Made by a program: the position numbers and the translations under genes. From a virus: a stretch of DNA of 21,788 nt. The stretch spans positions 1-21,788 of IMG/VR virus record IMGVR_UViG_3300029448_000505. One strand, written 5' to 3'. Under the pieces are notes generated by a model. It saw nothing but the letters and a program-made list of their open reading frames with translations, ran no database searches and was not told where the DNA came from. This document shows, piece after piece, positions 4,528-18,679 of this stretch (the stretch's first letter is position 1; each line of letters starts with the position of its first letter).

Positions 4528-6121
4528 TGAGTTTGGTTATCTAGGCAATCCGTCTGTCAAAAGAGATGGAGTTGAAACTGAATTTACAAAAGAGGACATT
4601 CTAGAATATCAAAAATGTATGAGAGACCCAGCATATTTTGCTAGGACGTATATTAAAATTATAAATCTAGACGAAGGATTAGTTCCATTTGATTTATACC
4701 CTTATCAAGAAAAAATGTTTAATCATTTTAATGATAATAGATTTAGTATAGTATTAGCATGTAGACAAAGTGGTAAATCAATATCTTCGGTTGTATATCT
4801 TTTATGGTATGCAGTATTTCATCCAGAAAAAACAATTGCAATATTAGCAAATAAAGGAGCAGTTGCAAGAGAAATGCTCGCGCGTATCACGCTCGCGCTA
4901 GAAAATTTACCATTCTTTTTACAGCCAGGGTGTAAAGCTTTAAATAAAGGAAGTATAGAGTTTAGTAATAATAGTAAGATAATAGCTTCAGCTACTTCTG
5001 GTAGTTCAATAAGGGGTTTATCAATTAACTTACTTTTTCTTGATGAGTTTGCTTTTGTAGAAAATGACGCACAGTTTTATACATCAACCTATCCTGTAGT
5101 ATCTGCTGGTAAAGATACTCAGATTATTATTACATCTACAGCAAATGGAATAGGTAATATATACCATAAACTATGGGAAGGTGCAGTACAAAAAACAAAT
5201 GAGTTTAGACCGTTTAGAGTAGATTGGTGGGATGTACCAGGAAGAGATGATAAGTGGAAAAAAACTACAGTATCTAATACATCTGAATTACAGTTTGAAC
5301 AAGAGTTTGGCAATACGTTTCATGGAAGAGGTAATACATTAATTAGTGCTAATCATTTATTATCTCAAGTAAGTGTTGACCCAGAGTTTTTTAAGGAAAA
5401 CGTTTACATATATAAACAGCCAATTGAAGGCCATGAGTATGTAATGACAGTTGATGTATCTAAAGGCAGAAATCAAGATTACAGTACATTTACAATAATT
5501 GACGTAAGTGAACAACCATTTGAACAGGTTGCAGTATTTAGAGATAACAATATATCTCCAATGCTATTACCAGATATTATATACAAGTATGCAAATACAT
5601 ATAACGAAGCTTATGTAGTTGTTGAAAGTAATGACCAAGGAGCTGTTGTTTGTAATGGATTATATTATGATTTAGAATATGAAAATATGTTTGTAGAATC
5701 AAGCATTAAAGCAAATGCTCTTGGTGCTACTATGACTCGAAGAGTTAAACGTATTGGTTGTTCAAGCATAAAAGACTTAATAGAACAAGGTAAACTAAAA
5801 ATTAATGATGCCAATACAATTGTTGAAATGAGTACATTTGTGAGTAAGGGAAATAGTTATATGGCTCAAGCTCCTAATCATGACGATTTAATGATGAACT
5901 TAGTTCTTTTTGCTTGGTTTACTACAACTGATGTATTTCAAGCTTTGACAAATATCGATATGAAAGATATGTTATATAAAGAAAGACTTAAAGCTATTCA
6001 AGACGATATGTTGCCATTTGGTTACGTTGAGAGTGGGAACTACGAAAAGGATAAATATACTAAAGACGAAGATGGGAACATTTGGTTCGAACAAGAGTGG
6101 ACAGGAAATGCAAAATTTTAA
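4508..6121 (+). CDS. 17: Terminase large subunit gp17 (packaging ATPase and nuclease)
   Basis: gp17 powers DNA translocation into the prohead and cuts the concatemer. Start is ATG 4508; a TTG one codon earlier is possible but less likely. Of 537 residues (T4: 610), the N-terminal ATPase shows Walker A CRQSGKS (85-91), Walker B LLFLDE (175-180) and coupling motif TSTANG (209-214). The C-terminal RNase H-like nuclease shows its acidic residues in MTVDVSKGRNQDYS (Asp315), VVVESNDQGA (Glu373) and NHDDLMMNLVLFAW (Asp459/460). All catalytic motifs are intact. The gene overlaps gp16 by 20 bases and the following ATP-grasp gene by 14. A short GC-rich patch at 4877-4900 stands out from the surrounding AT-rich codons. 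Confidence 0.95.
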   Translation: MQKLKNNEFGYLGNPSVKRDGVETEFTKEDILEYQKCMRDPAYFARTYIKIINLDEGLVPFDLYPYQEKMFNHFNDNRFSIVLACRQSGKSISSVVYLLWYAVFHPEKTIAILANKGAVAREMLARITLALENLPFFLQPGCKALNKGSIEFSNNSKIIASATSGSSIRGLSINLLFLDEFAFVENDAQFYTSTYPVVSAGKDTQIIITSTANGIGNIYHKLWEGAVQKTNEFRPFRVDWWDVPGRDDKWKKTTVSNTSELQFEQEFGNTFHGRGNTLISANHLLSQVSVDPEFFKENVYIYKQPIEGHEYVMTVDVSKGRNQDYSTFTIIDVSEQPFEQVAVFRDNNISPMLLPDIIYKYANTYNEAYVVVESNDQGAVVCNGLYYDLEYENMFVESSIKANALGATMTRRVKRIGCSSIKDLIEQGKLKINDANTIVEMSTFVSKGNSYMAQAPNHDDLMMNLVLFAWFTTTDVFQALTNIDMKDMLYKERLKAIQDDMLPFGYVESGNYEKDKYTKDEDGNIWFEQEWTGNAKF

Positions 6122-7283
6122 CGAATTTACAACTGAAAAAACAGTAATAACAGAGGAAGAAAAAAGTTATAGGTATGTATACTTATGGTATGATGACCCT
6201 GAAGACCCTGATGACCCAGAAGCTACTGCAGATGATTTTATAAAAGAAGGAGATTCTGTAGGTTTAAAAGGATTTAAAGTTGATGTACAAGGTGCTTATT
6301 CTGATTTAGAAGATGGAGTAAGGTATATCTATGATGGCATGTCTGATAAAAAAGAAAGAAAGTTTAGAATAGACGAAAACACATTAGTATTTGTAAGAGC
6401 TCCAGTTACTAAAAGAAAAGCCTGGTCAGACTTTTTAACTCAGTTAGAAAGAGCTGGCGTTGTATGTGTTAACACTCGTGCATGTATGGAAATAACATCT
6501 GATAAATATAGAACAAGTTTATATCTTGCTGAAGCAGAATTAGCTCAGCCTAAAACAGTTTTAGTTCATCATCCAGAAAAAGCAATACCTGCTATGGAAA
6601 GACTTGGTGGCAAATATCCAGTTATTCTTAAAACACTTACAGGTTCGTTAGGTATTGGTGTTATTAAAGTAGATTCAGAAAGTTCATTACATTCAACTGT
6701 ACAGTTATTGTATAAGTTAGACCCAAACATGGGTGTATTACTACAAGAAATGATTAAGGACTTTACATTCGATATACGTGCTCATGTTATTGGTGGTAAA
6801 TTTCATGGAGCAATTAAAAGACCTGTAGTAGCAAAAGACTTTAGAAGTAATGTATCACTTGGTTCTAAACCGGCTCCTATAGAGTTAACGGAATTAGAAA
6901 TAGAACATGTTGAAAAGGCAGCAAAAGCTGTTGATGGTTTATGGGTAGGGGTAGATATATTCCCATCTAAAGATAGAAAAACAATACCACCAATGTTTAT
7001 TGAAATTAATTCAACACCAGGTACAAAAGGATATAGAAAAGCTACTGGTGAAAACCTAGCTAAAAATATATTAGTAAAATTTAAAAATAGAGATTATTGG
7101 CTCAAACCTAATACATATAAATCAATGTTTGAAGATAAGATACAAACAGATAGTATGGAGTTTGATGGAGATGTTGTAAAATGGTCTAAAGAAGGTATAC
7201 AATATGAACATGATATAATTGGTATATCAGATAAAAATCCTATAATAGAACATAATTCTATCGAAGTTGAGTTACTTCGTTAG
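6108..7283 (+). CDS. RimK-like ATP-grasp ligase
   Basis: ATP-grasp carboxylate-amine ligases activate a carboxyl group with ATP and join it to an amine. RimK, the closest relative by eye, adds glutamates to ribosomal protein S6. ATG 6108 is chosen: it overlaps the gp17 stop by 14 bases, whereas an upstream in-frame start at 6018 would lie deep in gp17. The 391-aa protein has an unusual acidic N-terminal region with YDDPEDPDDPEATADDF (28-44), then a complete ATP-grasp core. The core shows YPVILKTLTGSLGIGVIK (170-187, ATP-binding Lys175), LLQEM (211-215), FDIRAHVIGGKFHGAIKR (221-238), DFRSNVSLG (244-252), GVDIF (281-285) and the metal-binding FIEINSTPG (297-305). About 55 residues after this are unlike standard RimK. 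Substrate is unknown; glutathione-synthase-like activity is an alternative. Confidence 0.88.
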   Translation: MQNFNEFTTEKTVITEEEKSYRYVYLWYDDPEDPDDPEATADDFIKEGDSVGLKGFKVDVQGAYSDLEDGVRYIYDGMSDKKERKFRIDENTLVFVRAPVTKRKAWSDFLTQLERAGVVCVNTRACMEITSDKYRTSLYLAEAELAQPKTVLVHHPEKAIPAMERLGGKYPVILKTLTGSLGIGVIKVDSESSLHSTVQLLYKLDPNMGVLLQEMIKDFTFDIRAHVIGGKFHGAIKRPVVAKDFRSNVSLGSKPAPIELTELEIEHVEKAAKAVDGLWVGVDIFPSKDRKTIPPMFIEINSTPGTKGYRKATGENLAKNILVKFKNRDYWLKPNTYKSMFEDKIQTDSMEFDGDVVKWSKEGIQYEHDIIGISDKNPIIEHNSIEVELLR

Positions 7284-9088: not shown

Positions 9089-9616
9089 ATGGCAATATTA
9101 GGCGTAGACGATTTTAAATCAAAATTAGTAGGCGGTGGAGCAAGGTCTAACCTTTTCAAGGTGACTATGAACTATCCAAGTTATGCACAAGGTGATGTTG
9201 AACAAACATCTTTCATGTGTAAAACAGCTCAGATGCCTGCATCAATTATAGCACCTATCCCTGTATTATTCAGAGGTAGAACATTGCAAATAGCTGGTGA
9301 CAGAACATTTGACCCTTGGACAATTACTGTAATCAACGATGTTGATTTCACAGTTCGTAACGCTATGGAACGTTGGATGAATGGTATTAATGGACATAAC
9401 GAAAACACAGGATTATCTAATCCTACTGACTATCAGGCTGATGCAATTGTTGAACAATTGAATAAGGCTGGAGAAGTTACTAAGAAATATGACTTTAGAG
9501 GTCTATTTCCAACTAACATTTCTGAGATAGAAGTAAGTTATGACTCTGAAAATACTATAGAAGAGTTCACTGTTGAATTCCAGGTACAATACTGGGAATC
9601 AGACACTACTTCGTAG
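9089..9616 (+). CDS. 19: Tail tube protein gp19
   Basis: gp19 hexamers stack to form the inner tail tube through which DNA passes. The 175-aa sequence (T4: 163 aa) shows FKSKLVGGGARSNLFKVTMN at the N-terminus, SFMCKTAQMPASIIAPIPV, the FRGRTLQIAGDRTFDPWTIT strand pair, and VRNAMERWMNGINGHNENTG. It ends with IEEFTVEFQVQYWESD. These are the recognised features of T4-like tube proteins. It shares a transcription unit with gp18 (11-base gap) and is followed by a late promoter for gp20. Confidence 0.95.
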   Translation: MAILGVDDFKSKLVGGGARSNLFKVTMNYPSYAQGDVEQTSFMCKTAQMPASIIAPIPVLFRGRTLQIAGDRTFDPWTITVINDVDFTVRNAMERWMNGINGHNENTGLSNPTDYQADAIVEQLNKAGEVTKKYDFRGLFPTNISEIEVSYDSENTIEEFTVEFQVQYWESDTTS

Positions 9617-13264: not shown

Positions 13265-14596
13265 ATGTTTAATGCAGATAAAAACTTAATGGAAAAATGG
13301 AGTTCAGTACTCGACCACGAGTCAGTCTCCCCTATCCAGGATAACTACAAGAAAGCTGTCACAGCTAGATTGTTAGAAAACCAAGAAGTTGCCTTACAAG
13401 AAGAAAGAGTTCAAGCACAAGGAAATTATATTTCTGAAGCAGCAGCTGCCAATAATATTGGTGGCGGTAATATTGGTTCATTTGACCCAGTATTAATCTC
13501 TCTCGTACGTAGAGCAATGCCAAACCTTATTGCTTATGATATCGCTGGCGTTCAGCCAATGAGTGGACCAACAGGTCTTATCTTTGCAATGAAATCAAAA
13601 TACTCAACTCAGGGTGGAACAGAGGCTTTATTTGATGAAGCTGATACTGACTTCTCTGGAACAGGTACTCATCAAGCTGAACCAACAGGTTTAGGTGGTG
13701 CAACAGACGCAGATACAGACGGAAGTATTGCTGATACAGCAGCAGCTGATATCACTAACACATTCGGTTCTGGTCTTGCTACATCAGCGGCAGAAAGATT
13801 AGGAGTTGGCGAGTCCGGCGACGGTTCTTTCGGTGAGATGGCTTTTTCAATTGAGAAATCAACTGTCACAGCTAAATCAAGAGCTTTAAAAGCTGAATAC
13901 ACAATGGAATTAGCACAAGACCTTAAAGCAGTTCATGGATTGGACGCTGAAGGCGAACTTGCTAATATCCTATCAGCTGAAATATTGGCTGAAATCAACA
14001 GAGAAGTTGTTAGAACAATTTTAACAAAAGCTAAAATTGGTGCTTTACAAACTTCTACTGCTGTAAGTGGTATTTTTGATGTTAACACAGACTCAGACGG
14101 AAGATGGATGGTAGAGAGATTTAAAGGTCTCATCATGCAGATTGAAAGAGAATGTAATGTTATCGCTAAAGAAACAAGACGTGGAAAAGGTAATTTCATT
14201 ATCTGTTCTTCAGACGTTGCTTCAGCTTTAGCAGCTGCTGGAATGTTGGATTATACTCCAGCTTTATCAGCTAACTTGAATGTTGATGACACAGGTAATA
14301 CTTTTGCTGGTGTTCTTAACGGAAGAGTTAAAGTCTATATCGACCCTTATGCAACTATTGACTTTGTATGTGTAGGTTATAGAGGAACAAACCCGTATGA
14401 TGCAGGTATGTTCTACTGTCCTTACGTACCATTAACAATGGTTAAAGCAGTTGGTGAGAATGACTTCCAACCAAGAATGGGATTCAAAACAAGATACGGT
14501 ATGGTTGCAAATCCATTCGTAGCTGCTGACGGCACCGGTACAGACCGTGCTAACCAGTACTTCAGAATCTTCAGAGTTGACGACATTATGGTGTAA
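13265..14596 (+). CDS. 23: Major capsid protein gp23
   Basis: gp23 builds the icosahedral shell. The N-terminus LMEKWSSVLDHESVSPIQDN is the family signature, and the segments DPVLISLVRRAMPNLIAYDI, GVQPMSGPTGLIFAMKSKYS and NEFFDEADTDFSG-type residues (ALFDEADTDFSGTGTHQAE) follow. The C-terminus has VYIDPYATIDFVCVGYRGTN, YCPYVPLTMVKAVGENDFQP and FFRIFRVDDIMV-like QYFRIFRVDDIMV. Length is 443 aa (T4: 521). ISE followed by A at residues 56-59 is a good gp21 maturation site, comparable to the removal of about 65 residues in T4. AAGGAAA precedes the ATG. A strong terminator with a UUCG loop follows the stop by about 30 bases. No gp24 vertex paralogue is present in the window. Confidence 0.95.
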   Translation: MFNADKNLMEKWSSVLDHESVSPIQDNYKKAVTARLLENQEVALQEERVQAQGNYISEAAAANNIGGGNIGSFDPVLISLVRRAMPNLIAYDIAGVQPMSGPTGLIFAMKSKYSTQGGTEALFDEADTDFSGTGTHQAEPTGLGGATDADTDGSIADTAAADITNTFGSGLATSAAERLGVGESGDGSFGEMAFSIEKSTVTAKSRALKAEYTMELAQDLKAVHGLDAEGELANILSAEILAEINREVVRTILTKAKIGALQTSTAVSGIFDVNTDSDGRWMVERFKGLIMQIERECNVIAKETRRGKGNFIICSSDVASALAAAGMLDYTPALSANLNVDDTGNTFAGVLNGRVKVYIDPYATIDFVCVGYRGTNPYDAGMFYCPYVPLTMVKAVGENDFQPRMGFKTRYGMVANPFVAADGTGTDRANQYFRIFRVDDIMV

Positions 14597-14624: not shown

Positions 14625-14652
14625 AAAGGGTTTCTTCGGAGACCCTTTTTTT
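14625..14652 (+). terminator. Rho-independent terminator after gp23
   Basis: A 10-bp stem (14625-14634 with 14639-14648, one G-T wobble) closes the extra-stable tetraloop C(TTCG)G and runs into seven Ts (14646-14652). This is a textbook phage terminator and closes the head-gene transcript. A near copy lies at 15346-15372. Confidence 0.92.
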
Positions 14653-14657
14653 ATGTG

Positions 14658-14665
14658 TATAAATA
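14658..14665 (+). promoter_or_regulatory. T4-type late promoter for the porin-like gene
   Basis: Exact TATAAATA five bases after the T-run of the gp23 terminator, 33 bases upstream of the chosen ATG. Transcription restarts here right after termination, so this gene is expressed late but independently of gp23. Confidence 0.82.
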
Positions 14666-14697
14666 TTTTAGTATTAATTAAACAATGGAGAAATACA

Positions 14698-15327
14698 ATG
14701 AATAAAATAATGTTAATAGGACTATCTATATTATCCCTTTCACAAGTTGCAAGCGCTAATATAAGTGGTACTATTGGAGTGGAGTCTGAATACTTTTTCA
14801 GAGGAGAAAGCCAAGGCGAAGGAACCGCTATGCAAATGTCATTACATGGCGAAAAGTCTGGTTGGTTTGGTGGAGTGTGGGCAAGTGAAATTGACCATGA
14901 AGTTTCTAGTTGGGAACATAACTTTTATGGAGGTTATTCTTTTGATTTATCAGAAGATACAAGCTTTTATGGAGGTGTAATTGACTATGATTACGATAGC
15001 CATTGGTTAAAAGTTGGACCAGATGCTGAAAATAATAAAAATGATTTAAAGGAATACTTTATTGGTAGTTCATACAAAAGTGTTTCATTGGAACATTATG
15101 TTGACTCAGATAATAGTGACCTTACATATACTCAATTTGGATATGATTTACCACTAGGTTTAGCTATGATAGACCTTATGTTAACTTGGGGTAGACACAA
15201 TACCGGAGAAGACGTATTAGGATTAAAAGGTACAAAAGCTTTTGGCGATTGGGATATATCAATTATGGCAATGAAGAGAGATGAAATGAAATCTCATTCT
15301 TCTTTAGGTATACACTACAACTTTTAA
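14698..15327 (+). CDS. TorF/Gcw_chp-like outer-membrane beta-barrel (putative porin) with signal peptide
   Basis: Start ATG 14698 has GGAG at 14687-14690; an in-frame ATG at 14653 lies before the promoter and is rejected. The 209-aa product begins with a Sec signal peptide (NKIM, hydrophobic LIGLSILSLS, then QVASA, cut after Ala20). The mature part has ISGTIGVESEYFFRGESQGE, SGWFGGVWASEID and HNFYGGYSFDL. These resemble the bacterial TorF-family putative porin (Gcw_chp) pattern of a VxSDYxFRGxSQ opening followed by GxYxGxWxSN. The chain alternates polar and aromatic residues in short strands and ends SSLGIHYNF; a terminal Phe is the usual signal for outer-membrane insertion by BAM. It is a bacterial-type protein in the midst of virion genes, with its own promoter and terminator. 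Alternative: a non-pore OmpX-like envelope protein. Confidence 0.8.
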   Translation: MNKIMLIGLSILSLSQVASANISGTIGVESEYFFRGESQGEGTAMQMSLHGEKSGWFGGVWASEIDHEVSSWEHNFYGGYSFDLSEDTSFYGGVIDYDYDSHWLKVGPDAENNKNDLKEYFIGSSYKSVSLEHYVDSDNSDLTYTQFGYDLPLGLAMIDLMLTWGRHNTGEDVLGLKGTKAFGDWDISIMAMKRDEMKSHSSLGIHYNF

Positions 15328-15345
15328 TAACTTTAAGAATTATTT

Positions 15346-15372
15346 AAGGGTTTCTTCTGAGACCCTTTTTTT
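15346..15372 (+). terminator. Rho-independent terminator after the porin-like gene
   Basis: A 9-bp stem (15346-15354 with 15359-15367, one G-T wobble), loop TTCT and a run of seven Ts. It differs from the gp23 terminator by one loop base (TTCT instead of TTCG), which loses the extra-stable tetraloop. Confidence 0.9.
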
Positions 15373-15377
15373 ATGTG

Positions 15378-15385
15378 TATATATA
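15378..15385 (+). promoter_or_regulatory. Degenerate late promoter upstream of the 71-aa protein
   Basis: TATATATA, one base from the late consensus TATAAATA, in the same position relative to the terminator as the exact octamer at 14658. It lies 43 bases before the ATG at 15429, which has AGGAGA at 15418-15423. Activity is plausible but probably weaker. Confidence 0.5.
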
Positions 15386-15428: not shown

Positions 15429-15644
15429 ATGTCAAACGGAAAATCAGGCTTTGAAATAAGAGCCGACTTACTACACCAAGCTCAAGGTTTATTAGAGCAA
15501 AACATCCAGAGAAAAGTCGATGCAATTTATATGCATAACGATAATCATCCAGATGATAAGAAACCTTTACCAGCCGCTTCAATTAGCGCAGGCGATGTGA
15601 TAGCAATTGCTGGTGAATTAAACGAATTTGTTAATAGTAAGTAA
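15429..15644 (+). CDS. Conserved small T4-like phage protein of unknown function, 71 aa
   Basis: A short soluble protein starting MSNGKSGFEIRADLLHQAQG and containing IQRKVDAIYMHNDNHPDDKK, then ASISAGDVIAIAGELNEFVN. Similar small proteins, with a GFEIR.-LL opening and a closing DVI..A..L.EFV helix, are familiar near gp23/gp3 in marine T4-like phages, but no function is known to me. It has a strong ribosome site (AGGAGA) and sits alone between the porin cassette terminator and the gp3-like gene. No membrane segment, signal peptide or metal motif is seen. Confidence 0.75.
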   Translation: MSNGKSGFEIRADLLHQAQGLLEQNIQRKVDAIYMHNDNHPDDKKPLPAASISAGDVIAIAGELNEFVNSK

Positions 15645-15665: not shown

Positions 15666-16136
15666 ATGGCAACTTTAACTACAAACAAGAATTTTTTGAG
15701 TCCAGTAGGATTTCAATTTAAAATTTCCAGCAACCTTTATCCTAATCTAGAATATTTTGCTGTTGCAGCTACGTTGCCAGGTCTTAATATGACACAGGCA
15801 GAACAGAGTTATCGTGGCGTTAACTTATCATTTACTGGAGACAGACTTACATTTGATGATTTATCACTACGTATTAATATAACTGAAAACCTTGATAACT
15901 ATATTGAGACATTTGATTGGATGCATAAGTTAGTTCAGCAAAAAGATGCTGAAGACTTAAAAGTAGACGCAACTCTTCTTATACTTACATCACATAATAA
16001 TGTAGTAAAAGAAGTAGAGTTTAAAGGAGTATTCCCAACAAGCATGGAACCTATACAATTTGACGCACAAGCAGAAAGCGTTGAGTTTGTACAAATGGAA
16101 GTCAGCTTTGGTTATACTTACTTTGAATTTAAATAA
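15666..16136 (+). CDS. 3: gp3-like tail terminator / tube-fold protein
   Basis: The 156-aa protein has the tail-tube type fold signature: NFLSPVGFQFKI near the start, LEYFAVAATLPGLNM, LSFTGDRLTFDDLSLRINIT, NLDNYIETFDWMHKLV and a closing VEFVQMEVSFGYTYFEF. In marine T4-like phages a protein of this kind between gp23 and uvsY is annotated as gp3, which ends the tail tube and stabilises the sheath (T4 gp3: 176 aa). By sequence alone a second gp19 or a gp54-like tube initiator cannot be excluded. The start is unusual: the late promoter ends 5 bases upstream and no Shine-Dalgarno is present, yet the N-terminal residues look complete for the family. Confidence 0.7.
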   Translation: MATLTTNKNFLSPVGFQFKISSNLYPNLEYFAVAATLPGLNMTQAEQSYRGVNLSFTGDRLTFDDLSLRINITENLDNYIETFDWMHKLVQQKDAEDLKVDATLLILTSHNNVVKEVEFKGVFPTSMEPIQFDAQAESVEFVQMEVSFGYTYFEFK

Positions 16137-16140
16137 ACAG

Positions 16141-16169
16141 TTTACAAAAGCATAAAAGTATGGTATAAT
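16141..16169 (+). promoter_or_regulatory. Early/middle sigma70-type promoter for uvsY-uvsW
   Basis: TTTACA (16141-16146), 17-bp spacer, TATAAT (16164-16169) with an extended -10 (TATGG directly upstream). Bases 16155-16175 are identical to 18643-18663 before gp55. Predicted start of transcription is near 16176, two bases before the uvsY ATG at 16178. Confidence 0.88.
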
Positions 16170-16177
16170 AGTATAGT

Positions 16178-16624
16178 ATGAATAATTTGCAACAAATATT
16201 AGAAATGTGGAAAACAGACTCGGTAATAGATGAAATGAATCTAGACGAAACATCGAGAGATTCCGCTAAACTCCACGGTAAATACCTAGAACTTCTTTCA
16301 GTAAATCGTATGAAGCTCAAAAAAGCTGAACTTGAATTTAAAGTTATACTTAAAGACAAGTGGCTACACCTTAATGGTAAAATGAGTAAAGTAGAGATTG
16401 ATGAAAAAGGCTGGGACTATGACCCACTCAATGGAATAACTGTATTAAAAGGAGACATGGATTATTATTATAATGCTGACCCTGTAATACAAGAACATCA
16501 AGCAAAGATACATTACCTCGAAGAAGTTTGCAGTACTTTAAAAGAGATATTAGAAAACGTTAAATGGCGACATCAAAATATAAAGAATATGATTGAATGG
16601 AGAAAGTTTACTAGCGGAGCCTAA
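16178..16624 (+). CDS. uvsY: Recombination mediator UvsY
   Basis: UvsY helps the phage recombinase UvsX replace single-strand-binding protein gp32 on ssDNA, and so supports recombination-dependent replication. The 148-aa sequence (T4: 137 aa) aligns by eye with T4 UvsY from the first residues (NNLQQILEMWKTDSVID with T4 LEDLQEELKKDVFID). It continues with KLHGKYLELLSVNRMKLKKA and ends in the basic helical ILENVKWRHQNIKNMIEWRK. It overlaps uvsW by one base (TAATG). There is no ribosome site, and the strong promoter at 16141-16169 would give a leaderless transcript. Confidence 0.9.
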   Translation: MNNLQQILEMWKTDSVIDEMNLDETSRDSAKLHGKYLELLSVNRMKLKKAELEFKVILKDKWLHLNGKMSKVEIDEKGWDYDPLNGITVLKGDMDYYYNADPVIQEHQAKIHYLEEVCSTLKEILENVKWRHQNIKNMIEWRKFTSGA

Positions 16625-18606: not shown

Positions 18607-18628
18607 TAAATTTAAATTAAATTATTCC

Positions 18629-18657
18629 TTTACATTTACACCAAAGTATGGTATAAT
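18629..18657 (+). promoter_or_regulatory. Early/middle sigma70-type promoter for gp55
   Basis: TTTACA (18629-18634), 17-bp spacer, TATAAT (18652-18657), extended -10 TATGG. Bases 18643-18663 are identical to the uvsY promoter. A start near 18664 gives a leader of about 16 bases including GGAG at 18668-18671, correctly spaced to ATG 18680. Host polymerase can thus make the late sigma factor before late transcription begins. Confidence 0.9.
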
Positions 18658-18679
18658 AGTATATTATGGAGAAAATATT

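Follow-up and report, generated by a model that had tools for sequence, protein, structure and literature searches.

The window, that is, the whole stretch of DNA analysed here, comprises 21,788 nucleotides (positions 1 to 21,788 of IMG/VR record IMGVR_UViG_3300029448_000505). It belongs to a marine, T4-like phage that infects bacteria, and it is a T4-like block of structural and replication genes, the T4-like character being as the original prediction had it: gp13, gp14, gp15, gp17, gp18, gp19, gp20, gp21, gp22, gp23, UvsY, UvsW, gp55 and gp47 were recognized. Judged by gp23, the nearest isolates are Pelagibacter phage HTVC008M, the Methylophilales phages Melnitz and phage C48C1, with about 61–62% identity. 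The block contains two gp19-like (tail-tube family) genes, at 9089-9616 and 15666-16136, which are about 25% identical to each other. The region between gp23 and the second of them has the following features:

13265-14596, + strand: gp23 major capsid protein, left anchor of the TorF locus
14626-14665, + strand: left 40-nt repeat, with an intrinsic terminator followed by the predicted late promoter TATAAATA at 14658-14665
14626-15345, + strand: 720-nt cassette unit (one repeat plus TorF), missing from the near-identical contigs L046 and L048-L052
14698-15327, + strand: TorF/Gcw_chp family putative outer-membrane porin, 209 amino acids, with predicted Sec signal peptide 1-20 and C-terminal beta-signal
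15346-15385, + strand: right 40-nt repeat, with a terminator hairpin at 15346-15367 followed by the promoter-like TATATATA at 15378-15385
15429-15644, + strand: 71-amino acid protein with no Pfam match; in relatives it follows TorF (slot A) or precedes TorF (slot B)
15666-16136, + strand: gp19-like tail-tube-related protein, right anchor of the TorF locus

The product of the 209-codon reading frame was assigned to its family by profile searches. It matched Pfam Gcw_chp (PF09694) with 46.1 bits against a cut-off of 24, over residues 20-191, and NCBIfam TIGR02001 ("TorF family putative porin") with 61.3 bits against a curated cut-off of 47.15. In the Pfam model the match spanned positions 8-186 of 230, and in the TIGR model 25-201 of 244; about 45 positions at the end of the models were unmatched, although the end of the protein is a strand-like segment. 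No PHROG match was obtained, even at E 0.1, and phage annotation is therefore likely to miss the protein. The protein has in common with the proteobacterial TorF/Gcw_chp proteins the opening Y-x-F-R-G-x-(S/T)-Q, a similar length and a signal peptide. The latter, predicted by rule and by the conservation of K3, A18 and A20, is MNKIMLIGLSILSLSQVASA followed by N; it ends in ASA, and M1, K3, A18 and A20 are invariant in seven phage homologues. With its aromatic last residue, the C-terminus SLGIHYNF agrees with the pattern of BAM beta-signals and is the sole end of this kind among the 24 proteins of the window; S202, G204, Y207 and F209 are invariant in the phage homologues. Among cellular TorF proteins, none of 27 C-termini fitted the strict beta-signal pattern used, and many ended in F or L. 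So, the family identity, the signal peptide, the TorF-type opening and the BAM-fit end advanced in the original prediction were all borne out, and TorF, as read from these features, is probably an exported protein of the outer membrane. The dN/dS ratios of TorF (0.07-0.31) indicate purifying selection.

Concerning the start of the gene, an in-frame ATG at 14653 (224 amino acids) was considered and rejected, because the additional stretch consists of the promoter and the 5′ leader, and in relatives the gene begins at the second ATG, which has a GGAG site. The start at 14698 is thus the likely one.

The fold was approached by structure prediction and by analysis of the sequence pattern. AlphaFold models built from phage-only alignments of 9 and then 7 sequences had mean pLDDT of 30.8 and 38.2, respectively; the second showed ten strands within residues 55-207, and two further strand-like segments (22-35 and 43-52) precede them. 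In a hand-drawn layout of 12 strands, the inside/outside alternation was greater than in shuffles (p about 0.004). Of the 50 best Foldseek matches to this low-confidence model, 48 were barrels of the transmembrane or outer-membrane kind (OmpG, KdgM, OmpU and designed barrels), with TM 0.57/0.68 and rmsd 3.2 for the KdgM porin, all of the matches having E above 0.01 and none below 0.001. A sequence search for solved structures among TorF relatives found none. Since the AlphaFold confidence stayed low, the barrel claim leans on other evidence: with family membership, sequence periodicity and the low-confidence model considered together, a barrel fold is likely, while the number of 12 strands is a guess. 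The barrel of the original prediction is thus likely, in view of the strand-like alternation and of the structural matches to a model of low confidence.

The TorF gene is flanked by two direct repeats, 95% identical to each other and spaced 720 nt start-to-start. In the left one, the terminator hairpin (14625-14648) is AAAGGGTTTC-TTCG-GAGACCCTTT, and in both repeats a T-run adjoins the hairpin. Promoters and terminators were called as sequence matches. The motif TATAAATA lies 40 nt upstream of the TorF start codon in the window, where it occurs in nine copies on the + strand and zero on the − strand, several of them directly preceding late structural genes. TATAAAT is the T4-like late promoter motif, used also in the Melnitz study (PMC9004378). 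In all 14 records with readable upstream DNA, the window included, a terminator and TATAAATA are found 25-40 nt before the TorF start codon, in both slots. The late promoter, also anticipated originally, is therefore supported by the motif, which suggests that TorF would be switched on together with the structural genes.

The distribution of the gene was studied in IMG/VR relatives, searched with the gp19-like neighbour protein. This search found 325 loci. The 80 most similar to the clade of the window were read, so that the counts that follow do not represent frequencies in nature. Among these 80, the interval from gp23 to the gp19-like gene was complete in 75 loci, with TorF present in 8 and absent from 67. 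Four states of the interval were distinguished: 68-96 nt with neither small gene, 347-409 nt with the 71-amino acid gene only, 762 nt with TorF only, and 1040-1097 nt with both. The presence or absence of the 71-amino acid gene is independent of that of TorF, which makes it a second optional late gene at this locus.

The most precise comparison is with six contigs without TorF (L046 and L048-L052), in which gp23, the 71-amino acid protein and the gp19-like protein are 99–100% identical to those of the window, and nucleotide identity is 97–99% on both flanks. Their interval measures 352 nt and is exactly 720 nt shorter than that of the window (1072 nt), and at the junction a single repeat copy is joined straight to the right-hand flank. 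A one-repeat empty site of this kind would be expected after recombination between the two repeats or after insertion via one of them, and agrees with either direction of change. This mobile cassette with exact empty sites is a refinement beyond the original prediction.

The marine TorF family was found in 15 IMG/VR records, 14 of them at the window's locus, and on these grounds host contamination or misassembly was rejected. Counting the window, TorF lies between gp23 and the second gp19-like gene in 15 viral records, in two alternative slots. It precedes the 71-amino acid gene in the window, L002-L005, L008 and L009, and follows it in L010, L035, L036, L041 and L045; no 71-amino acid gene accompanies it in L006 and L007, and the contig of L011 ends within TorF. 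The record off the locus, L032, is a T4-like contig; its ORFs were read as including UvsX-like and DnaB-like genes. Its TorF relative (L032:5434-6108) is 47% identical, is located downstream of the DnaB-like helicase gene and of a 77-amino acid membrane-type protein, and lacks TATAAATA.

In the isolates HTVC008M, Melnitz-2, C48C1 and Mosig, no TorF was found in the region after gp23, and a profile search of the whole genomes gave no Gcw_chp. These results bear on the possibility that TorF, with head and tail genes around it, is not an outer-membrane protein but part of the virion or a periplasmic structural accessory. This is very improbable, as the signal peptide and the C-terminal beta-signal are conserved, and the gene is missing both from the four related isolate genomes and from the near-identical phages. 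An ordinary virion component is rejected on the same absences, and presence in only 8 of the 75 loci is not that of a core T4-like virion gene. This distribution, with homologues at the same locus in some relatives only, agrees with what had been expected of a protein that is not an ordinary virion component. Conversely, the TorF cassette has the attributes of a moron, namely its own predicted promoter and terminator, and presence/absence at a fixed site among close relatives. Altogether, the TorF gene is very probably a late moron that codes for an outer-membrane porin and that the phage can do without or exchange, rather than a gene for a core virion protein.

The exchangeable character is apparent also in the divergence of the alleles. 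Between the window and L009, dS was 0.44 for TorF, 0.19 for the gp19-like gene and 0.25 for gp23, while TorF and gp19-like values were 0.43 and 1.34 with L007, and 0.51 and 2.15 with L010. In L035, the neighbours are mostly 93–97% identical to those of the window and TorF just 62%. Since the divergence of TorF is out of step with that of its neighbours, TorF alleles have been exchanged between lineages.

With respect to origin, TorF relatives were present in 159 of 369 sampled genomes of Gammaproteobacteria versus 48 of 337 of Alphaproteobacteria. A 38-sequence tree placed the marine phage copies in a single clade of their own (support 100/99), which, together with their being phage-encoded with a late promoter, sets them apart from the proteobacterial proteins. 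Cellular and phage TorF are roughly 25–40% identical, mostly near 30%, in the aligned part, and two scans of genome contigs gave no close cellular donor; the 15 pattern hits from these scans were chance matches, with no reading frame among them being a TorF protein. The designation "host-type" used in the original prediction is thus correct at the level of the family, while a close donor was not found.

A TorF gene is also carried by Acinetobacter phage AB1I1M-1 (OQ627712), likewise with a T4-like genome, where it is already annotated as a TorF family putative porin. It is about 31% identical to TorF of the window over 39% of the query, and it lies among small hypothetical and nucleotide-metabolism genes, not in a structural block. 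No close IMG/VR relatives of it were found, and its grouping with the marine clade is weak (60/36), which fits one or two acquisitions.

As to function, we propose that TorF is a small outer-membrane beta-barrel, probably 12-stranded and monomeric, encoded by a self-contained late cassette in the order terminator, late promoter, gene, terminator. The cassette would enter or leave the region between gp23 and the gp19-like gene when homologous recombination takes place in the terminator-promoter repeats. Late in infection, TorF would be exported by Sec, and BAM would insert it into the outer membrane of the host. There it would form a narrow, acidic pore and so make the membrane more permeable to small solutes during virion production. 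The pore would probably prefer cations, since the proposed lumen side in the hand-drawn layout has 14 acidic and 3 basic residues. The combined proposal of a barrel porin, a mobile late moron cassette and a benefit through solute permeability falls somewhat short of an even chance, and solute permeation as the main benefit to the phage is a tentative choice, for which the late timing is no more suitable than for exclusion or lysis. Shewanella torF is listed as a TMAO reductase system outer membrane porin (PMC5955497). A functional study of any TorF protein was not found in the literature, where searches on Gcw_chp gave nothing, and on TorF with phage nothing relevant.

The same barrel and cassette could serve phage-phage competition instead, by masking, replacing or crowding out a receptor, so that competitors would no longer adsorb to the infected cell (or its debris) and progeny would not be inactivated. 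Precedents for competition of this kind via the outer membrane are the Lc porin of phage PA-2 and Llp of T5. The patchiness of TorF within near-identical phages and the swapping of diverged alleles are typical of competition genes, and the proposed extracellular loops vary more than the strands (mean pairwise difference 0.388 vs 0.256). Exclusion by surface change has, moreover, been proposed for pelagimyophages (PMC7029224). However, the loops are just moderately more variable, dN/dS is low, and late expression would cover only the end of infection. The known exclusion genes of T4, on the contrary, are early. Taken by itself, superinfection exclusion is rather unlikely to be the explanation; it is nearly as likely as solute entry.

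Returning to the pore proposed above, it could also weaken or depolarise the envelope and hasten the release of progeny. The late promoter would suit this role, and relatives within the group carry another outer-membrane pore, CsgG, for which a role in lysis timing has been proposed (PMC9004378). Nevertheless, no lysis gene was recognized adjoining TorF, most related phages manage without it (67 of the 75 loci have no TorF at this position), and porins normally do not destabilise membranes, which makes a lysis aid improbable.

Among these roles, which correspond to the three that the original prediction named as possible, we tentatively prefer solute permeation. It is worth comparing TorF with the CsgG/CsgF pore of pelagimyophages and Melnitz, another channel of the outer membrane that phages of this broad group have acquired. 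The proteins are unrelated, and the CsgG/CsgF locus is a hypervariable region between the replication and structural modules. CsgG occurs in HTVC008M, in Melnitz-2 and in one of the window's relatives, of 128 kb, and the TorF carriers are all short contigs. Uptake, lysis and exclusion have all been discussed for CsgG (PMC7029224, PMC9004378, PMC9599517).

Accessory outer-membrane barrels are also encoded by temperate phages, as is the case of lambda Lom and the PA-2 Lc porin. Like TorF, these are phage-encoded, but they belong to other barrel families, Lc being a trimeric general porin. Barrels in temperate phages and one T4-like isolate with an annotated TorF were thus already known; new are the occurrence of a TorF family among marine T4-like phages, its location within the late structural block with a conserved late promoter motif, and the exact presence/absence cassette bounded by repeats. 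The phages of this group are placed with those whose hosts are among the most abundant bacteria of the sea, and phage genes acting on the host outer membrane late in the lytic cycle have hardly been studied; the case of TorF suggests that the virus remodels the outer surface of its host while new particles are built. Natural phage pairs differing by one 720-nt porin cassette offer a ready comparison for the value of the channel to a lytic phage, and repeat-bounded terminator-promoter cassettes a simple, testable route by which accessory genes may enter a tightly packed late operon. A broader, speculative reading, more probably wrong than right, is that phages of this group make general use of the duplicated terminator and late-promoter block as a handle for recombination, through which late, host-derived envelope genes would be swapped between capsid and tail genes with neighbouring transcription undisturbed, TorF resetting the outer membrane of the infected cell against competitors or for import.

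Two other observations were made elsewhere in the window. A RimK-like ATP-grasp ligase gene (6117-7283, + strand; Pfam RimK, 105 bits) lies between the terminase gp17 and the tail sheath gp18, an unusual position for an enzyme of the peptide-ligase type. Besides, two 63-nt blocks, 75% alike, precede UvsY (16123-16185) and gp55 (18611-18673), and both have near-consensus sigma-70 promoters (TTTACA-17-TATAAT with TG), which are probably early or middle promoters.
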